Shown here piece after piece: positions 1,923-45,969 of a stretch of 46,029 nucleotides of DNA. The position numbers and the translations under genes are program-made. This stretch comes from Candidatus Sodalis sp. SoCistrobi (GTDB lineage Bacteria; Pseudomonadota; Gammaproteobacteria; Enterobacterales; Enterobacteriaceae). The notes under the pieces were generated by a model, which was given only the letters and a program-made list of their open reading frames with translations, was not told the DNA's origin and made no database searches. The stretch spans positions 1 to 46,029 of the forward strand of contig NZ_FRDB01000003.1 in the NCBI RefSeq assembly GCF_900143145.1, given 5' to 3'. How positions within the stretch are numbered: the stretch's first letter is position 1; every line of letters begins with the position of its first letter.

Positions 1923-4173
1923 ATGACAGACCCGGAGGCGCTTTATCAGCGGGCGCAGCAGGCCGGCATTATTACCGAGTACGTCGACGCCTGGCAACGG
2001 CCGCGGCGCATTAGCCCGGAGACACTGCGGCTACTGCTGGCCGCCATGCCGGGGGCTGATGCCTGTAACCCCTCGGCGCCGCTGCCGCCTGTGTGGGTGA
2101 CCGGCGGTAAACGTAAGCGCTCGCTGACGTTGCCGGACGGGATATCCGGGGCCTGGACGCTTACCGAGGAGTCGGGCAGGCAGCATCACGGGCAGACTTT
2201 GGTAAATCCCTTGGCCGGCGGCGAGGGATCTGCGCCTGACTCAGAACGCGGTGCGCATCAATTGACGCTGCCGGCGGGGGTGTCCGACGGTTACCACCGG
2301 TTGACGCTAAGTGCCGCAGACCGCCGTTGGGAGTGCAAAGTGATTGTCGCCCCCGAGCGCTGTTATGAACCGCCGGCGCTCCGTGCGGGCCAGCGGCTGT
2401 GGGGTAGCACTGTCCAGCTCTATACGCTGCGTTCGTCACGCAATTGGGGCATCGGCGATTTCGGCGATCTGGCGCAAATGATCGCAGGCGTTGCTAAGCT
2501 CGGTGGCGCTTTTGTCGGCATCAACCCGCTGCATGCGCTATATCCGGCCCTGCCCGACTGGGCCAGTCCCTACAGCCCCTCCTCGCGCCGCTGGCTGAAT
2601 ATTATCTATATCGACGTCGGCGGCTTGGACGATTTTTTACAAAGTGAACCCGCGCAGCAATGGTGGCGGCAGCCGGAAACCGGGCAGCGCCTGCAGGCGC
2701 TGCGCGCGGATGACTATGTTAACTATGCGCAGGTGATGCAGCTCAAGCTGACGGCGCTGCGTTACGCCTGGACGCAATTCCAGCGGCGAGGGGAAGGCTG
2801 TCCTGAACGTCGCTCGCTGGCCGAATTTGTCGCTGGCCGGCGGCGACAGTCTGTATCAGCAGGCCACCTTTGATGCACTGCAGCTGCAACAGGTGGCTGA
2901 TAGCGGCAGCGGTCCGGGCTGGCGCGCCTGGCCGGCGGAGTATCAACAGGTCGGCAGCGCGGCGTTAGCGCGTTTCAGGCAACAACACCCGGACGAGATC
3001 GCATTTTTCAGTTATCTGCAGTGGCTGGCGGCCAGGCAGTTGGAGGGCTGTTATCGGCTCAGTCAGCGGCTGGGGATGCCGGTGGGGATGCCGGTGGGGA
3101 TGCCGGTGGGGATGCCGGTGGGGATGCCGGTGGGGATGCCGGTGGGGATTTATCGCGATTTGGCGGTGGGCGTCGGCGAGGGCGGCGTGGAAACCTGGGC
3201 CGATCCTCTGCTTTATTGTTTGTCCGCGTCGGTGGGTGCGCCGCCGGACAGGCTGGGCCCGCAGGGCCAGAATTGGCAATTGCCGCCGCAGGATCCGAAC
3301 GTGCTGTACGCGCGCGGCTATCAGCCTTTTATCGACATGCTGCGCGCCAATATGCGCTATTGCGGCGCGCTGCGCCTGGATCATGTGATGGCTTTGATGC
3401 GCCTGTGGTGGGTACCGCAGGGCTACGGTTCGGCGCACGGCGCTTACGTGCGCTATCCGGTGGAGGATCTGCTGGCGGTACTGGCCCTCGAGAGCCAGCG
3501 CCAACGCTGTATGGTCATCGGCGAGGATCTCGGCACCGTGCCGGAGGACATCGTCGAGAAGCTGCGTACCGCAGGCGTGTATTCGTATAAAGTGCTGTTT
3601 TTTGAACGGGATCAGGATCGGCAATTCCGTGCGCAGGCGGACTATCCCGCGCAGGCGATGGCCACGCTAACCACCCATGATCTCGCGACGTTAAGCGGCT
3701 TTTGGCAAGGGGCGGACATCGACCTGGCCCACCGACTGGGCCTGTATGACGACGAGCAAACTTGGCAACGGCTTCTGGAGGAGCGTCGTCAGGAACGGCA
3801 GGCGCTGCTGGACGCACTGCGGCGCGCGGACTGCTTACCGGCCAACACGCCTGTGCGGGCGGAAGATGTCGCTATGTCATCCGCCATGAACGCCGCCATA
3901 CACCGTTTTATGGCGCAAAGCCGCAGCGCGCTGCTGGGATTACAGCCCGAAGACTGGCTGCAAATGGCGACGCCGGTCAATGTCCCCGGTACCACCGATG
4001 CCTATCCTAATTGGCGGCGTAAACTGACGCGGGATCTGGAAACGATGTTTAGCGACCCTGACATAATCCGACTGCTTACGGCGGTTGGAGACGGGCGACG
4101 CCTTGCTTTGGCGCCTGCGCTGAGCCGTTCGGCCAGGAGAGCGCAGGACGATAACGACGATCGTGCGGGGTAA
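1923..4173 (+). pseudogene. malQ: 4-alpha-glucanotransferase (amylomaltase), frameshifted
   Basis: MalQ disproportionates maltodextrins (GH77). The first frame, 1923-about 2840, gives the N-terminal domain and the start of the barrel (LWGSTVQLYTLRS, NWGIGDFGDL, SPYSPSSRRWLN). At about 2835-2842 the coding frame moves: after FVAG the continuation GGDSLYQQATFDAL lies in another frame. Removing one C or G from the GGCCGGCGGCGAC stretch would restore FVAGGGDSL. The second frame runs intact to 4173 and holds the GH77 catalytic blocks: LRLDHVM with the nucleophile Asp, IGEDLGT with the acid/base Glu, and the later TTHD. A 12-bp unit is expanded to six copies at 3073-3144, adding about 20 residues before GIYRDLAVG. 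Without the frameshift the protein would be about 750 residues, longer than the E. coli 694. Decayed together with malP. Confidence 0.93.
3073..3144 (+). repeat. 12-bp tandem repeat, six perfect copies, within malQ
   Basis: GGGATGCCGGTG repeats six times without a mismatch and encodes Gly-Met-Pro-Val six times. The E. coli counterpart has one MPIG at this place, so five copies are extra. Perfect identity between copies implies a recent expansion. The antisense and alternative-frame open reading frames across it (HPHR or GGDA repeats) are artefacts of the repeat. Confidence 0.97.
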
Positions 4174-37876: not shown

Positions 37877-39157
37877 GTGCCGAATCCCCTGCTGCATACC
37901 ATCAGTCACGTCCGGCTGCCCTGGCGTGAAGGTTTATGGCAAATCACCCTCGAGCAGGGAGTCATCCGCCGTCTGGCGCCGCAAAATCACGGTCAGCAGG
38001 ACGGCGAAGGCGTCCTTAATGCCGAGGGCGGATTGGCGATACTGCCGTTTGTCGAACCCCACATCCATCTGGATACCACGCAGACCGCCGGTGACCCGCG
38101 CTGGAACGAGTCCGGTACGCTGTTTGAGGGCATTGCCCGTTGGGCCGAGCGCAAAACGACCCTGACCCATGAAGACGTCAAAACCCGCGCCTGGCAGACG
38201 CTGAAATGGCAGATCGCCAACGGTATTCAGCACGTACGCAGCCACGTGGATGTCTCCGACCCCTCACTGACGGCGCTGAAAGCGCTGCTGGAAGTCAAGC
38301 AGGAAGCGGCGCCGTGGGTGGATTTGCAGTTGGTGGCGTTTCCCCAGGAAGGGATCCTGTCTTTTCCAGACGGCGAAGCCTTGTTAGAGGAAGCGTTGCG
38401 GCTGGGTGCCGATGTGGTCGGCGCCATTCCTCATTATGAATTTACCCGCGAGTATGGCATCGCGTCGTTGCATAAAGCCTTTGCGCTGGCGCAAAAGTAC
38501 GACAAGCTGGTGGACGTCCACTGCGACGAGATCGATGACGAACAATCGCGCTTTGTGGAAACCGTGGCGACGCTGGCGCTGGAGGCCCGGCTGGGCGGCA
38601 GGGTCACCGCCAGTCATACCACCGCCATGCATTCCTATAACGGCGCCTATACCGCGCGGCTGTTCCGCCTGCTGAAACTCTCAGGCATCAATTTCGTCGC
38701 CAATCCGCTGGTGAATATTCATTTGCAGGGCCGTTTTGATGATTATCCCAAGCGCCGCGGCGTCACCCGGGTGAAAGAAATGCTGGCGCAAGGGATAAAT
38801 GTTTGCTTCGGCCATGATGATGTGTTTGACCCCTGGTACCCTCTCGGCACCGGCAATATGTTGCAGGTGCTGCATATGGGCCTGCACGTATGCCAGCTGA
38901 TGGGATATGAGCAGATCAATAAAGGGTTGAACCTGATTACCACTAATAGCGCGCGAACGCTCAACCTGAGCGATTACGGCATCAAATGCGGCTATCGGGC
39001 CAATTTACTGATCCTGCCGGCGGAAAACGGTTTCGACGCCATAAGGCGCCAGACGCCGCCGCGCTACGTTATCCGTCACGGGCAGGTGATCGCGGAAACC
39101 CCGTCATCGCCATCGCGACTGTATTTAACGCAGCCGGAGAGTGTGGATTTCCGCTGA
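37877..39157 (+). CDS. codA: Cytosine deaminase
   Basis: CodA deaminates cytosine to uracil for pyrimidine salvage. It is an amidohydrolase of 426 residues (E. coli 427) with all metal and catalytic residues: HxH in [14 protein letters not shown], His and Glu in [14 protein letters not shown], His in [14 protein letters not shown] and Asp in [12 protein letters not shown]. The start is GTG 37877 with AGG 8 bases upstream. The usual partner, the cytosine permease codB, is not adjacent, so substrate entry must rely on another carrier or on internal cytosine. It is convergent with the MocR gene (11 bases). The position after trpS differs from E. coli. Confidence 0.95.
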
Positions 39158-39168
39158 GCGGTGGGGTG

Positions 39169-40629
39169 TTACTGCTCGTCCTGCGCCGTTTCCGCCGCCG
39201 GGTTCAGCTTGGCGCAGGCCTCCAGCTGCTGTGCCACCGTTTCGCCGATGCATTTTACCGCGGCCTCGATAGCCGGTGTCATGCGGTTGGCATAATTGAG
39301 GCGCAGGCAGTGGCGGTATTTCCCGGAGGCGGAGAAAATCGGTCCCACCGCCACCTGTACGCCCTTGTTTTCCAATTGACGGTTCAGCCGCACGGTATCA
39401 AACGCCGGCGGCAACTCTATCCACAGCAGAAATCCCCCCTGCGGTCGGCTTATCCGGGTTCCTGCCGGAAAATACCGCTGCACCCACTCCGTCATAATGT
39501 CGCGATTAAGCTGATAGCGGGCGCGCATCCGGCTCACGTGCTTGAGGTAGTGCCCCTGACGCAGAAATTCGGCGATGGCCAGCTGCGGCTGCGTGGCGGT
39601 GGCGCCGGTGCCGATATATTTCATGTGCAGTACCTGCTCCATATAGCGCCCTGGCTCGATCCAGCCGATACGCAATCCCGGCGCCAGCGTTTTGGAAAAT
39701 GAACTGCACAGCAGCACCCGGCCATCTTCGTCAAAGGATTTTATCGTCCGCGGCCGGGGGTAGTGATAGGCCAGATCGGCATAAACATCGTCTTCAATGA
39801 TCGGCGTATCGTAACGTTGCGCCAGCGTCAATAACGCCACCTTGTGGGCGTCCGGCATGATATAGCCCAGCGGATTATTGCAGTTGGGCGTCAGTTGGAT
39901 AGCTTTGATTGGCCACTGTTCGAGGGCCAGTTCCAGCGCCTCCAGACTGATACCGGTCAGGGGATCGGTAGGGATTTCCAGCGCTTTCATGCCGAAACCC
40001 TTCAGGATTTGCGTGACGCCGTGAAAGCTGGGTGAGTCTACCGCCACAATATCCCCCGGCCGGCATAGCGCATGAATGGCGATAGACAACGCTTCGTGAC
40101 AGCCGGTGGTGATGATGATCCCTTCCGGCGCTACGTGGCTGCCGCTGTCTATAATCAGCCGCGCGATCTGCTCGCGCAGCGGCGCGGAGCCGCTCAGTTC
40201 ATCATAATGCATGCTGCGCAGGTCCGGGTGCAGCGCCACGCGACTCATCAGGGTTCGCAGCGGTTTCAGGGTGGTGGCGGTAACGTCAGGTACGCCGGGC
40301 CCTAAATGAATGACGTCGCGGGCGCTGCGGGTGCGGGTCAGTTGCAGCACCAGGTCCCATTGCGAAATCTCCACCGGTCGCTGCGCGGGCCGGCACATTT
40401 CCGGCAGTGCCGGCAGTCCGTGCTGCTGACAGACGAAATAGCCGGATTTGGGGCGGGCGGTAATCAACTGGCGGTGTTCGAGCACGCGATAGGCCTGCTG
40501 TACGGTGCTGATGCTTACGCCATGTTCCACGCTCAGCGCGCGCACCGAGGGCAGGCGCTGGCCGCGGTTGTACAGCCCTTGTTCAATGCGTTCGCCGATG
40601 ATGTCGGCCAGATGATGGTAGCGGGTCAT
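39169..40629 (-). CDS. MocR-type GntR/aminotransferase-fold regulator (YdcR-like)
   Basis: A 486-residue MocR-family regulator. Residues 1-70 form a GntR winged helix (HHLADIIGERIEQGLYNRGQRLPSVRALSVEHGVSISTVQQAYRVLE). The rest is a fold-type I aminotransferase-like domain with the PLP-binding Lys in CSSFSKTLAPGLRIGW and the Asp in IIEDDVYADL. MocR proteins sense an amino compound or PLP itself and often regulate a neighbouring gene. This one looks closest to E. coli YdcR in general layout. It is divergent from a DUF1127 gene, and the 175-base spacer carries four TACAGAT/ATCTGTA half-sites, a probable operator. GAGG lies about 6 bases upstream of ATG 40629. Intact; ligand unknown. Confidence 0.9.
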   Translation of the reverse strand: MTRYHHLADIIGERIEQGLYNRGQRLPSVRALSVEHGVSISTVQQAYRVLEHRQLITARPKSGYFVCQQHGLPALPEMCRPAQRPVEISQWDLVLQLTRTRSARDVIHLGPGVPDVTATTLKPLRTLMSRVALHPDLRSMHYDELSGSAPLREQIARLIIDSGSHVAPEGIIITTGCHEALSIAIHALCRPGDIVAVDSPSFHGVTQILKGFGMKALEIPTDPLTGISLEALELALEQWPIKAIQLTPNCNNPLGYIMPDAHKVALLTLAQRYDTPIIEDDVYADLAYHYPRPRTIKSFDEDGRVLLCSSFSKTLAPGLRIGWIEPGRYMEQVLHMKYIGTGATATQPQLAIAEFLRQGHYLKHVSRMRARYQLNRDIMTEWVQRYFPAGTRISRPQGGFLLWIELPPAFDTVRLNRQLENKGVQVAVGPIFSASGKYRHCLRLNYANRMTPAIEAAVKCIGETVAQQLEACAKLNPAAETAQDEQ

Positions 40630-40639
40630 AGTTGCCTCA

Positions 40640-40750
40640 TACAGATGGCCGTGTCAGCGGAAAAACCGGTACAGATCGTACTTAAGAATACCATTATAGA
40701 TGAAATAATCTCAATCTGTATGCTTAAAATAGTGCCTTTCTGAATCTGTA
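40640..40750. promoter_or_regulatory. Symmetric four-half-site operator between the MocR gene and the DUF1127 gene
   Basis: TACAGAT occurs at 40640-40646 and 40670-40676; its complement ATCTGTA occurs at 40714-40720 and 40744-40750. Within each pair the spacing is exactly 30 bases (about three helical turns), and all four sites are symmetric about 40695. The inner-left site extends to GGTACAGAT and the outer-right site to ATCTGTACC. MocR regulators commonly bind paired repeats in the divergent spacer, so these are the natural operator. The outer-left site lies only about 11 bases from the regulator's own start codon, which suggests autoregulation. Confidence 0.75.
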
Positions 40751-40804
40751 CCGTATTGAGGCAATCTTCCATCATAGCCCTGTCCCTCAGCCACAGGAGC
40801 TATG

Positions 40805-41062
40805 ATGAAAACGCCACCGGAATACTCTACCGCCTTACTTATGGCGCAATCTGACCCCGCCGTTTGCCCGGCCGCTGTGGGTCGGTCAGGCTTTGTGCGC
40901 CGTCTCTGGGCGCGGCTTCGCCGCTGGCGGCTTTACCGGCGCGACAAACGTATCTTACTCGGCCTCAGTAACGATCAACTGCGGGACATCGGTTTGACGC
41001 GCGACGACATTCATCGCTACAACGAGACGCTACACCCGCGCTGGCGCGCCGGTCGGCGCTAA
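40805..41062 (+). CDS. Small DUF1127-family protein (YjiS-like)
   Basis: An 85-residue protein. The C-terminal half is a DUF1127 domain: basic RRLWARLRRWRLYRRDKRILLGLSNDQLRDIGLTRDDIHRY. DUF1127 proteins are small, Arg-rich and in some bacteria bind RNA or affect phosphate and stress responses; no function is established for this group. ATG 40805 is preferred to ATG 40802 because GGAG is then at a normal 5-base distance. It is divergently paired with the MocR regulator and separated from it by the symmetric operator, so it is the likely regulated target. A 51-bp tandem array lies directly downstream. Confidence 0.8.
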   Translation: MKTPPEYSTALLMAQSDPAVCPAAVGRSGFVRRLWARLRRWRLYRRDKRILLGLSNDQLRDIGLTRDDIHRYNETLHPRWRAGRR

Positions 41063-41118
41063 AGACGACCACAGCGGATGCGGCAGGGCGTCTGGCCTGC
41101 AAGGTCTCCGCGTTGGGT

Positions 41119-41271
41119 AAGAATACCGGCCATACTGGGCGCCCGGGGTTGACGGCGCCATCGTCGGGCAAGAATACCGGCCATGCTGGGCGCCCGGGGC
41201 TGAAGGCGCCATCGCCGGGCAAGATTATCGCCCGCGCCGGGCACCCGGGGTTGACGGCGCCATCGCCGGGC
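41119..41271. repeat. 51-bp tandem repeat, three copies
   Basis: AAGAAT/AAGATT starts lie at 41119, 41170 and 41221, exactly 51 bases apart, each followed by a GCCCGGGG-type block and GGCGCCATCG. It lies in the 297-base gap between the DUF1127 gene and the convergent nickel permease gene. Because 51 is a multiple of 3, both strands show apparent repeat ORFs, which I do not accept as genes. Just after the array, CGCGCC (41276-41281) pairs with GGCGCG (41286-41291), a short hairpin. Confidence 0.88.
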
Positions 41272-42737: not shown

Positions 42738-43937
42738 TCAGCCGATCGCCTGGCTATGGCTATGGATACGGTGACGACTGACAAAACCCAGCAGCAAGCA
42801 CAGGACAAACACCGCCGCATACAACAGGTTGGCGGTTTGCAGCGCCGCGCTAACGCCGAAGCGGGCCACAATAGGACCGGTAACGACAAACGTCAACATG
42901 GTGCCGATGGTGCCACAGGTCAGGATAAAATTGATAAGCTTGGGCGACGTTACCTGGGTCTGCTGCGAGCCCAGCGTAATGATCGTGGTATAAATCGCGC
43001 TGGAAACAAAGCCCAGCGCCAGTAAACACCAGGGCAACAGAGCGGGATCGCCGGCGTGGATAAACCCATACATGAAAGCCGCCGACAGCGCCGCAAGCAC
43101 CGTCACGATACGCTGCAAATCGAAGAAGCGCAGTAGGGCGCTAAAAACCCACATCCCTACCATATAAGCGGTCCAAAAGTTGCCTACCAGGCCGCCGGCC
43201 TGTTGAATATCCATATTGAAACGCGACGTCGCATATTCCGGCACCCAGGAGATAAAACCGAGCTGGCCCAAAATATAACAGAGCGCAGCCAGCGCCAGCA
43301 GCGCCACGCCCGGACCCCAGGACTCGCGTGTTTGCGGCGTCTGCTGACCCGTGGCGTCGGCGTCGCGCGCTTTCAGCACCGGAAAATCGGACAGCAGAGT
43401 AAGAACAAAAATCACCACATACACCCCGCCAATACAGGCATACACCCAGTACCAGGTAATATGGCGCGCTAGCAGCACGCCGGCCAGCATGGGGAATAGC
43501 ATACCGGCCATACTGAAGAACGAGTCGGTAAACAACAGGCGCGAGCCGCGCTGCCGCCCCGCATACAGATGGGTGATCAGATAGGTGCCGATGGACATCG
43601 TGATGCCGCTAACCACCCCTAGGACAAACATCGACAGGGAGAATATCGTCAGATTATGGCCGCTCATTAACCCCAACACCGCCAGCACCATCAGCAGAAA
43701 ACCGAACATTAACTGCCGTTTCAGCGGGATAATTTCCATCAGCCAGGCATTGAGGAAAATCGCCGCTAAAATGCCGGAGTTAAGGAACGTGAAGGTATTA
43801 CTCATACGTGAAACGGGTAACTGGAAGTAGTCGGCGATGTTACCCAGCACCACGCCGGTGACGATAACCAACGCGCCCGTGAGACCATAGGAGAAGAAAC
43901 TAATCCATGTTAGTCTTAATTTATTGTTTTTATTCAT
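42738..43937 (-). CDS. tsgA: Major facilitator superfamily transporter TsgA
   Basis: A 399-residue MFS permease with about 12 TM segments, closely matching enteric TsgA (393 residues). Shared blocks are [95 protein letters not shown] and [18 protein letters not shown]. TsgA was named for tellurite/selenite/gold effects; its physiological substrate is unknown. AGG precedes ATG 43937 by about 8 bases. Only 51 bases separate the start from the IS4-family element, so the native promoter may have been displaced and transcription might depend on the IS. Confidence 0.95.
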
Positions 43938-45366: not shown

Positions 45367-45721
45367 GTTTAATGCGGGTACGGAGCGTCAGGTTATTGCG
45401 CTCTATACGTTGCGTGAAGATCTTGCCAGTCAGATGTTTCTGCTTCGGCACCTCTCTTGCATAGCTGCCCCAGTTGTCACTGGTAATCATGCCGATGTTG
45501 AACGGCGTCAACAGAGCCAGCAATTCACGGCAGGTCTCATCGGTTCGGGGGCCAAAAGTGTAGGCTATAACGCCGCCCGTTTTGGTATTGTAAGCGTACC
45601 AGAGCCAGTGCTGTAGCGCCTTACTGCCAACGAAGCTCCATTGCTCATCAAGTTCACAGATAAGGGCGACATCGGCGTGAGCAACGGGAGAAGACGTTAT
45701 CCGGCGGGGCGAGAGCTTTTT
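45367..45721 (-). pseudogene. insB: IS1 InsB transposase, C-terminus cut off
   Basis: The frame opens in the -1 register at the insA slippery site and reads KKLSPRRITSSP, then the catalytic region CELDEQWSFVGSK, LWYAYNTKTGGVIAYTFGPR, ITSDNWGSY and TQRIERNNLTLRTRIKR, without stops. It is then interrupted at 45366 by the IS4-family element. About 35 C-terminal residues are lost. It is normally made as the InsAB' fusion by -1 frameshifting. Confidence 0.88.
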
Positions 45722-45969
45722 AAAGCCCGGATGACCGTGTTGATGCCGATTTTCAACGTTCTAGCGGTATCGCGAACACCGGCACCGTTGAAGGCCATAT
45801 CAACGATCTGCTCTTTAACTCCCGGCTTTCGCGCTTCATAGCGGTAGGTAAGCTGGAATACACGGTGACAGCACTGACACCGGAAGCGTTCGCGCTTAGT
45901 TGGACTAAGGCCATGTCGATAAATTTCATCTGAATGGCAGCGAGGACAATGAACAGAAACTGTAACCAC
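45697..45969 (-). CDS. insA: IS1 InsA
   Basis: A 90-residue protein with the InsA zinc-finger pairs (CPRCHSDEI and CQCCHRVF) and a helix-turn-helix (VRDTARTLKIGINTVIRALK) that binds the IS1 ends and represses transposition. It starts at GTG 45969. The slippery heptamer T TTA AAA (minus strand, 45724-45718) lies near its end and would produce the InsAB' transposase by -1 shift. InsA itself is intact; InsB is not. Confidence 0.92.
   Translation of the reverse strand: MVTVSVHCPRCHSDEIYRHGLSPTKRERFRCQCCHRVFQLTYRYEARKPGVKEQIVDMAFNGAGVRDTARTLKIGINTVIRALKSSRPAG

Follow-up and report, generated by a model that had tools for sequence, protein, structure and literature searches.

A conserved three-box core in the yjiR-yjiS spacer is the predicted operator of the MocR-type regulator YjiR

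The spacer between a gene for a MocR-type regulator and the divergent gene for a small DUF1127 protein in Candidatus Sodalis sp. SoCistrobi contains a group of short boxes that, judging from orthologous spacers, are real and conserved and look functional, and it is very probable that the regulator itself, YjiR, binds them. The conserved unit is an asymmetric arrangement of three boxes, TACAGAT-(44)-ATCTGTA-(30)-ATCTGTA, rather than the symmetric four-site design that a sequence-only reading of this DNA had proposed as the functional unit; in this corrected geometry, YjiR would be a local regulator of its own neighborhood. We favor the view that it is a PLP-dependent autoregulator that probably activates yjiS. 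Throughout, the window means the whole stretch of DNA that was analyzed, 46,029 nucleotides long.

The regulator, its partner, and the boxes between them

The regulator gene lies on the reverse strand of the window (39169 to 40629) and encodes a protein of 486 amino acids in which Pfam recognizes a GntR winged helix (PF00392, 52.4 bits against a cut-off of 27) and a fold-type-I aminotransferase domain (PF00155, Aminotran_1_2, 124.9 bits against a cut-off of 19.7). The gene is matched by E. coli yjiR at the DNA level, and in a tree of 47 rows from chosen loci its product groups with E. coli YjiR in a DUF1127-linked clade of 35 rows with a support of 100/100. In an alignment of 138 MocR rows, 137 have the PLP lysine, K313, and the remaining row has a gap; the alignment took the place of a regular expression, which failed to detect the PLP motif in 26 of 133 rows. 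By sequence, this gene is thus a YjiR orthologue whose product is predicted to depend on PLP. The domain fusion, the PLP lysine, and the mixed-orientation boxes at whole-turn spacing beside a divergent gene together place the protein in the MocR subfamily. Its partner, on the forward strand (40802 to 41062), occupies the place of E. coli yjiS and encodes the YjiS orthologue, a DUF1127 protein of 86 amino acids (PF06568, 44.6 bits against a cut-off of 23.3).

The spacer contains two exact copies of TACAGAT, at 40640 to 40646 and 40670 to 40676, and two exact copies of ATCTGTA, at 40714 to 40720 and 40744 to 40750. The boxes of each pair are 30 bases apart, and the mirror centre of the four is exactly 40695; the four sites, the 30-base spacings, and the symmetry described in the sequence-only reading are all exact in the window sequence. 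Taking the second TACAGAT as box 1 (forward strand, extended form ACCGGTACAGAT) and as conserved position 0 of the core, box 2 lies at +44 and box 3 at +74, both on the reverse strand, so that their forward-strand letters read ATCTGTA. The first TACAGAT, also on the forward strand, is an outer box at -30, and a degenerate internal box, TATAGAT, lies at +25 on the forward strand (40695 to 40701). At 10.5 bp per turn, 30 bases correspond to 2.9 helical turns and 44 bases to 4.2.

Several further features of the surroundings may be mentioned. Among the named genomes compared, the closest is Candidatus Sodalis endolongispinus, with 97% for the proteins, in line with a probable origin in a Sodalis-like insect symbiont. 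A 51-bp unit, whose length is divisible by three, is repeated in tandem 3.1 times directly downstream of the DUF1127 gene (41115 to 41271), and a cytosine deaminase-like gene is found at the 3′ side of yjiR (37877 to 39157). An IS1 InsA gene is present at 45697 to 45969, and the stretch from 45928 to 45964 recurs 20 more times in the draft of 397 contigs, which is consistent with an IS-rich symbiont genome.

Conservation of the core

We compared 93 orthologous spacers (80 from genome contigs, 12 from relatives, and one from E. coli). The 21 core nucleotides have no mismatch in 52 of them, one in 29, two in 8, and three in 2, and the two poorest spacers, L004 and L010, have five and eight, respectively. 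When neighboring spacings were scanned over the same 93 spacers, there was a clear mismatch minimum at 44/30. With the spacing left free, box 2 and box 3 are 30 bases apart in 51 of 54 Enterobacteriaceae spacers (the exceptions being G019, G469, and G494), while the interval between the first two boxes of the core measures 44 in 45 of the 54, 45 in 5, 43 in 3, and 50 in a single spacer. In 44 of these 54 spacers and in 80 of 82 others, the two distances are both exact; the second set is mostly Pseudomonas, and the two overlap in some species (e.g., G493, L033). The 30-base spacing proposed from the window alone is therefore kept for the pair on the DUF1127 side (51/54 and 80/82). The half-sites on which that proposal depended are conserved in the orthologous spacers, and its interpretation as an operator survives. 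Taken together, the core appears to be conserved across Enterobacterales and Pseudomonas.

Promoters and the direction of regulation

In the mechanism we propose, the spacer would serve YjiR as its operator, with the TACAGAT/ATCTGTA boxes as the predicted binding words. One YjiR dimer would hold box 2 and box 3, which are direct repeats 30 bases, or about three turns, apart. A candidate promoter for the DUF1127 gene has its -10 hexamer, CATCAT, at 40770 to 40775 on the forward strand, and a -35 at a spacing of 17 bp (40747 to 40752) would overlap box 3. The corresponding CATnnT, at +100 to +105, has a per-position conservation of 0.88 to 0.92 in a profile of 91 spacers, mostly from Pseudomonas, and is weak or blurred in Enterobacteriaceae; the consensus scan of the window did not find CATCAT. 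Box 3 would thus stand at the -35 edge of the likely yjiS promoter, a position typical of class II activators, which would suit activation. The remaining boxes (box 1, internal, and outer) are all found on the yjiR side of box 2, before the start of that gene, and their occupancy would repress yjiR. The consensus scan also gave a candidate yjiR promoter, TTGAGA-18-TATTCT (40685 to 40714, reverse strand, 9/12), as a consensus match; it is not conserved in the spacer profile, in which no single yjiR promoter common to all genera was found. A ligand that forms or displaces an aldimine with PLP would switch the complex, and the output would be the amount of YjiS.

The most serious competitor of this mechanism, although we give it clearly lower odds than activation, is that YjiR represses yjiS as well as itself and that the ligand relieves the repression, box 2 lying inside or beside the yjiS promoter. 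In a survey of constitutive E. coli promoters, the entry for yjiS is TTAACC-15-TAAAAG (PMC3946193), which puts K-12 box 2 between the -35 and the -10 and hence suggests repression. Similarly, in the window, a consensus match directed towards the DUF1127 gene, TTAAGA-16-AATAAT (40682 to 40709, forward strand, 9/12, with a TG before the -10), ends just before box 2, and the AT-rich sequence that follows this box shows strong conservation. However, both promoters are list or consensus entries rather than mapped starts, a -35 at that position is poorly conserved, and the characterized MocR regulators include the activators GabR, TauR, and PdxR (PMC5320631). We favor YjiR as a local autoregulator that probably activates yjiS.

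Accessory boxes and symmetry

Outside the core, the arrangement of boxes depends on the lineage. A box on the MocR side is found with at most one mismatch in 30 of the 54 Enterobacteriaceae spacers, against a mean of 3.6 and a maximum of 9 in 200 shuffles. Among these 30, it lies at -18 in 23, at -30 in 5 (the Sodalis group), at -40 in 1, and at -19 in 1, and in named Serratia spacers it lies at -40 in three and at -41 in one. An exact outer box is absent from all 67 Pseudomonas spacers, and the three that have one with a single mismatch (-22, -22, and -26) are near chance (shuffle mean 0.9, maximum 3). The internal box behaves similarly: at +24 or +25 and with at most one mismatch, it is present in 26 of the 54 Enterobacteriaceae spacers (shuffle mean 2.4, maximum 7), and in the mostly Pseudomonas set it is at chance level (3 of 82, shuffle mean 3.8). 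It is exact in L032 and in some f10 genomes, such as G893, the latter read by eye.

Given that the outer box changes position with the lineage or is missing, the symmetry of the window is best regarded as a lineage variant. Perfect symmetry as a design was rejected on the same grounds, and the degenerate fifth box, TATAGAT, breaks the mirror in any case; what the sequence-only reading took for a symmetric functional unit of four sites thus reduces to three boxes at 44 and 30, and the box at 40640 is not conserved in position. It is conceivable, though we think it rather improbable, that the symmetric four boxes of the Sodalis group represent a distinct functional state in which two dimers bridge into a closed loop, and not a drifted outer box. 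Boxes at 30/44/30 occur in five Enterobacteriaceae genomes (exact in G000, G004, G436, and G486, with one mismatch in G408), four boxes, all of them exact, are found at 31/44/30 in L012, and the positions of the outer box (18, 30, and 40) differ by about one helical turn, so that the face of the DNA would be roughly kept. Against such a loop, the relatives L034, L035, L036, and L038 retain the outer box at -30 yet carry two or three mismatches in box 2, and in most orthologues the outer box is absent or elsewhere.

A single operator locus that follows the regulator

Among 119 Enterobacteriaceae genomes, 49 have both genes, 66 have neither, 2 have YjiR only, and 2 have DUF1127 only. The co-occurrence gives a Fisher p of 2e-28, a value that ignores relatedness and genome reduction. 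A divergent DUF1127 domain lies within 800 bp of 50 of the 52 YjiR copies in these genomes; thus, the pair is old, and the view of the MocR and DUF1127 genes as a divergent two-gene pair is confirmed as near-exclusive in Enterobacteriaceae. In one of the YjiR-only genomes (G436), YjiR itself is split over two frames, and in the other (G480), the partner frame begins like YjiS and has no Pfam match. One of the DUF1127-only genomes (G486) has a broken YjiR. The other, G427, has its DUF1127 gene at L201 2496 to 2660 and serves as a natural control: neither a search at E 1e-140 nor the 5 kb of sequence examined at this locus revealed a YjiR, and the operator is absent, the best fit to the core having 10 mismatches, the same as in shuffles. 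G463 contains an additional DUF1127 gene that is not next to YjiR. In G479 (C66:18500-22500; L189 and L180), there is a tandem pair of YjiR genes, each copy facing a divergent DUF1127 domain of its own, and both spacers have distances of 45/30, with one mismatch in one and three in the other.

The gene pair has no constant companion. For 49 loci chosen for their spread over genera, we found no conserved third neighbor: the largest cluster comprises 9 loci, all of them from Pseudomonas, and the next 8. The neighbor at the 3′ side of yjiR clusters in 8 of the 49 loci, which are Sodalis-like or near relatives. The pair is also accessory in E. coli: among 5426 complete genomes, matches covering at least 80% of the K-12 query are present in 3499 for yjiR, 3646 for the spacer, and 3354 for yjiS.

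The core was then sought by pattern in the same 119 genomes. At up to three mismatches, it occurs in 47 (3 for a backwards control), and at up to one mismatch it occurs in 36, at a single locus in each. Of these 36 loci, 34 adjoin a listed YjiR, and 2 (G410 and G486) adjoin YjiR genes broken over several frames. Neighbors were checked for 31 chosen loci with the core pattern, the DUF1127-like frame being recognized by a regular expression and not by Pfam. All 16 loci with zero or one mismatch lie beside a MocR gene and a DUF1127-like frame; 2 of the 5 with two mismatches lie beside MocR, 2 have no MocR, and L242 has one MocR match at a position outside the criterion of the test. None of the 10 loci with three mismatches lies beside MocR; thus, such matches should be taken as chance unless a MocR gene adjoins. 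In the genome of the window, no other box pair at a spacing of 44 or 30 was found within one mismatch, and a wider regulon in that genome was rejected at this threshold. At two mismatches, 21 of the 29 places outside the operator listed for one pair are one repeated IS1 sequence (backwards control 3), and the other pair gives six scattered places (backwards control 2).

These observations also bear on the idea that another regulator reads the boxes and that YjiR is merely a neighbor. Salmonella yjiS does show that further regulators can act at this gene (PMC11707872), but the operator follows YjiR and the MocR genes related to it and not DUF1127, it also precedes LysE, SnoaL, and cupin partners, and it is absent from G427, the one genome with DUF1127 in which no YjiR was found; we therefore regard this alternative as very improbable. 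Chance repeats in an AT-rich spacer can practically be discarded. The 7-mer is short, and a fifth copy at 43564 brings the window to 5 against 1.8 expected, a number reached in 4 of 100 whole-window shuffles. However, when the 172-bp spacer was put through 50,000 dinucleotide shuffles, only 30 of them contained any 7-mer in the equally spaced two-plus-two design, and the decisive point, the conservation of the core in both Enterobacterales and Pseudomonas, already refutes chance.

Related regulators and the possible signal

When 369 genomes of the class were searched by pattern alone, with up to two mismatches allowed, the core was found in 4, in all cases beside MocR; three of these regulators are only 39 to 44% identical to YjiR. 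Given that a backwards control matched 2 of the 369 genomes, the three distant matches count only in that every one of them adjoins MocR, and the tally says little on conservation, as the sample consists mostly of families without YjiR. The partner of the YjiR-like MocR is a LysE-type exporter in L209 and a SnoaL protein in L208, with a LysE-type gene further on. In L210 (G175, 2026 to 3340), a divergent cupin gene and, after it, a frame that combines DUF1127 and SnoaL_2 domains lie behind the same operator. A fourth case, L226, has a LysE partner and a core with two mismatches.

We also applied a word-free test of the 44/30 spacing to 14 MocR spacers outside the YjiR orthologues (L013-L021, L023, L026, and L208-L210), and only L208-L210 passed it. 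L013 and L017 failed because their distances are 44/31 and 43/31. Nevertheless, the boxes of these two, whose MocR proteins are 37 to 38% identical to YjiR, read TACAGTT or TACAGAT, then AACTGTA or AGCTGTA, then ATCTGTA, and they precede divergent genes for biopterin-dependent aromatic amino acid hydroxylases (phenylalanine hydroxylase-like, PF00351). As similar operators are thus found at related MocR genes with other partners, the box code appears to be older than the exclusive partnership with DUF1127. By analogy with the LysE exporter and phenylalanine hydroxylase partners of these related regulators, amino acids would be a reasonable first guess for the ligand of YjiR.

The sequence-only reading had considered the output of the pair to be unknown, which is out of date. 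In E. coli, YjiS binds the sensor kinase PhoR, and phosphate uptake is faster in a yjiS mutant (PMC12501420, 2025), while in Salmonella YjiS has been tied to the sensor kinase SsrA (PMC11707872, 2025). The latter study reports that yjiS expression is blunted in an ssrB mutant; the regulator to which it points is SsrB, the only regulator of yjiS that we have met in print, and its main text does not mention yjiR. As for YjiR itself, it has been counted among the E. coli factors of unknown function and found active under serine hydroxamate (PMC9308461), its gene is induced in the mouse gut in an enterohaemorrhagic strain in which its deletion causes no colonization defect (PMC6550539), and the protein served as a negative control in a gel shift with YdcR (PMC9321722). 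Judging by titles and the openings of abstracts, we found, among the papers listed, no publication presenting YjiR as acting on yjiS; we also found none combining MocR and DUF1127.

With the conserved operator, an orphan regulator of E. coli would have a precisely predicted binding site and only one predicted target, and, if the prediction is right, a PLP-dependent sensor would be joined to phosphate signalling. A bolder extension, which we offer tentatively and think more likely wrong than right, is that YjiR is a dedicated, single-target amino acid sensor that, via PLP, is alone in setting the level of YjiS, and that YjiS in turn tunes PhoR and other sensor kinases. The pair would then form a link, conserved in both Enterobacterales and Pseudomonas, through which the status of amino acids or vitamin B6 acts on phosphate uptake, with a box code inherited from an older MocR group for amino acid export and phenylalanine hydroxylation.

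Comparison with known systems

The operators of MocR regulators described in PMC5320631 resemble that of the window in the number of boxes, their mixed orientation, their spacing near whole turns, and a TGT core. The commonest class in that work, with two direct boxes and one inverted box at whole-turn spacing, accounts for 245 of 761 regulons, and a class of four boxes, '<- <- -> ->', comprises 39 regulons; the four boxes of the window would fit the latter if the box is read as ATCTGTA, under an assumed arrow convention. YjiR and DUF1127 are absent from the main text of PMC5320631; a prior prediction in its supplement or in RegPrecise is possible.

The nearest known counterpart is yjiR-yjiS of E. 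coli K-12 (b4340-b4341), which shares with the window the orthologous genes, the divergent layout, and the three-box core, box 2 of K-12 having one mismatch. The outer box is where the two differ, as in K-12 it lies at -18 with one mismatch and in the window at -30. Among the named regulators, PdxR is the closest NCBIfam model to the YjiR of the window (NF052282), but its 286.2 bits are under the cut-off of 320, so that membership in PdxR does not follow, and no vitamin B6 gene was seen beside this yjiR. The distance to the GabR model is greater (NF052285, 135 bits against a cut-off of 600), and membership in GabR does not follow either. Nevertheless, the domain layout and PLP fold of GabR from Bacillus subtilis are common to the YjiR of the window, which matches the sequence of PDB 4n0b at an E value of 1e-21. 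According to the title of a paper cited in PMC5320631, GabR is an autorepressor and an activator of gabT; its partner genes encode GABA enzymes, unlike the DUF1127 partner of YjiR.
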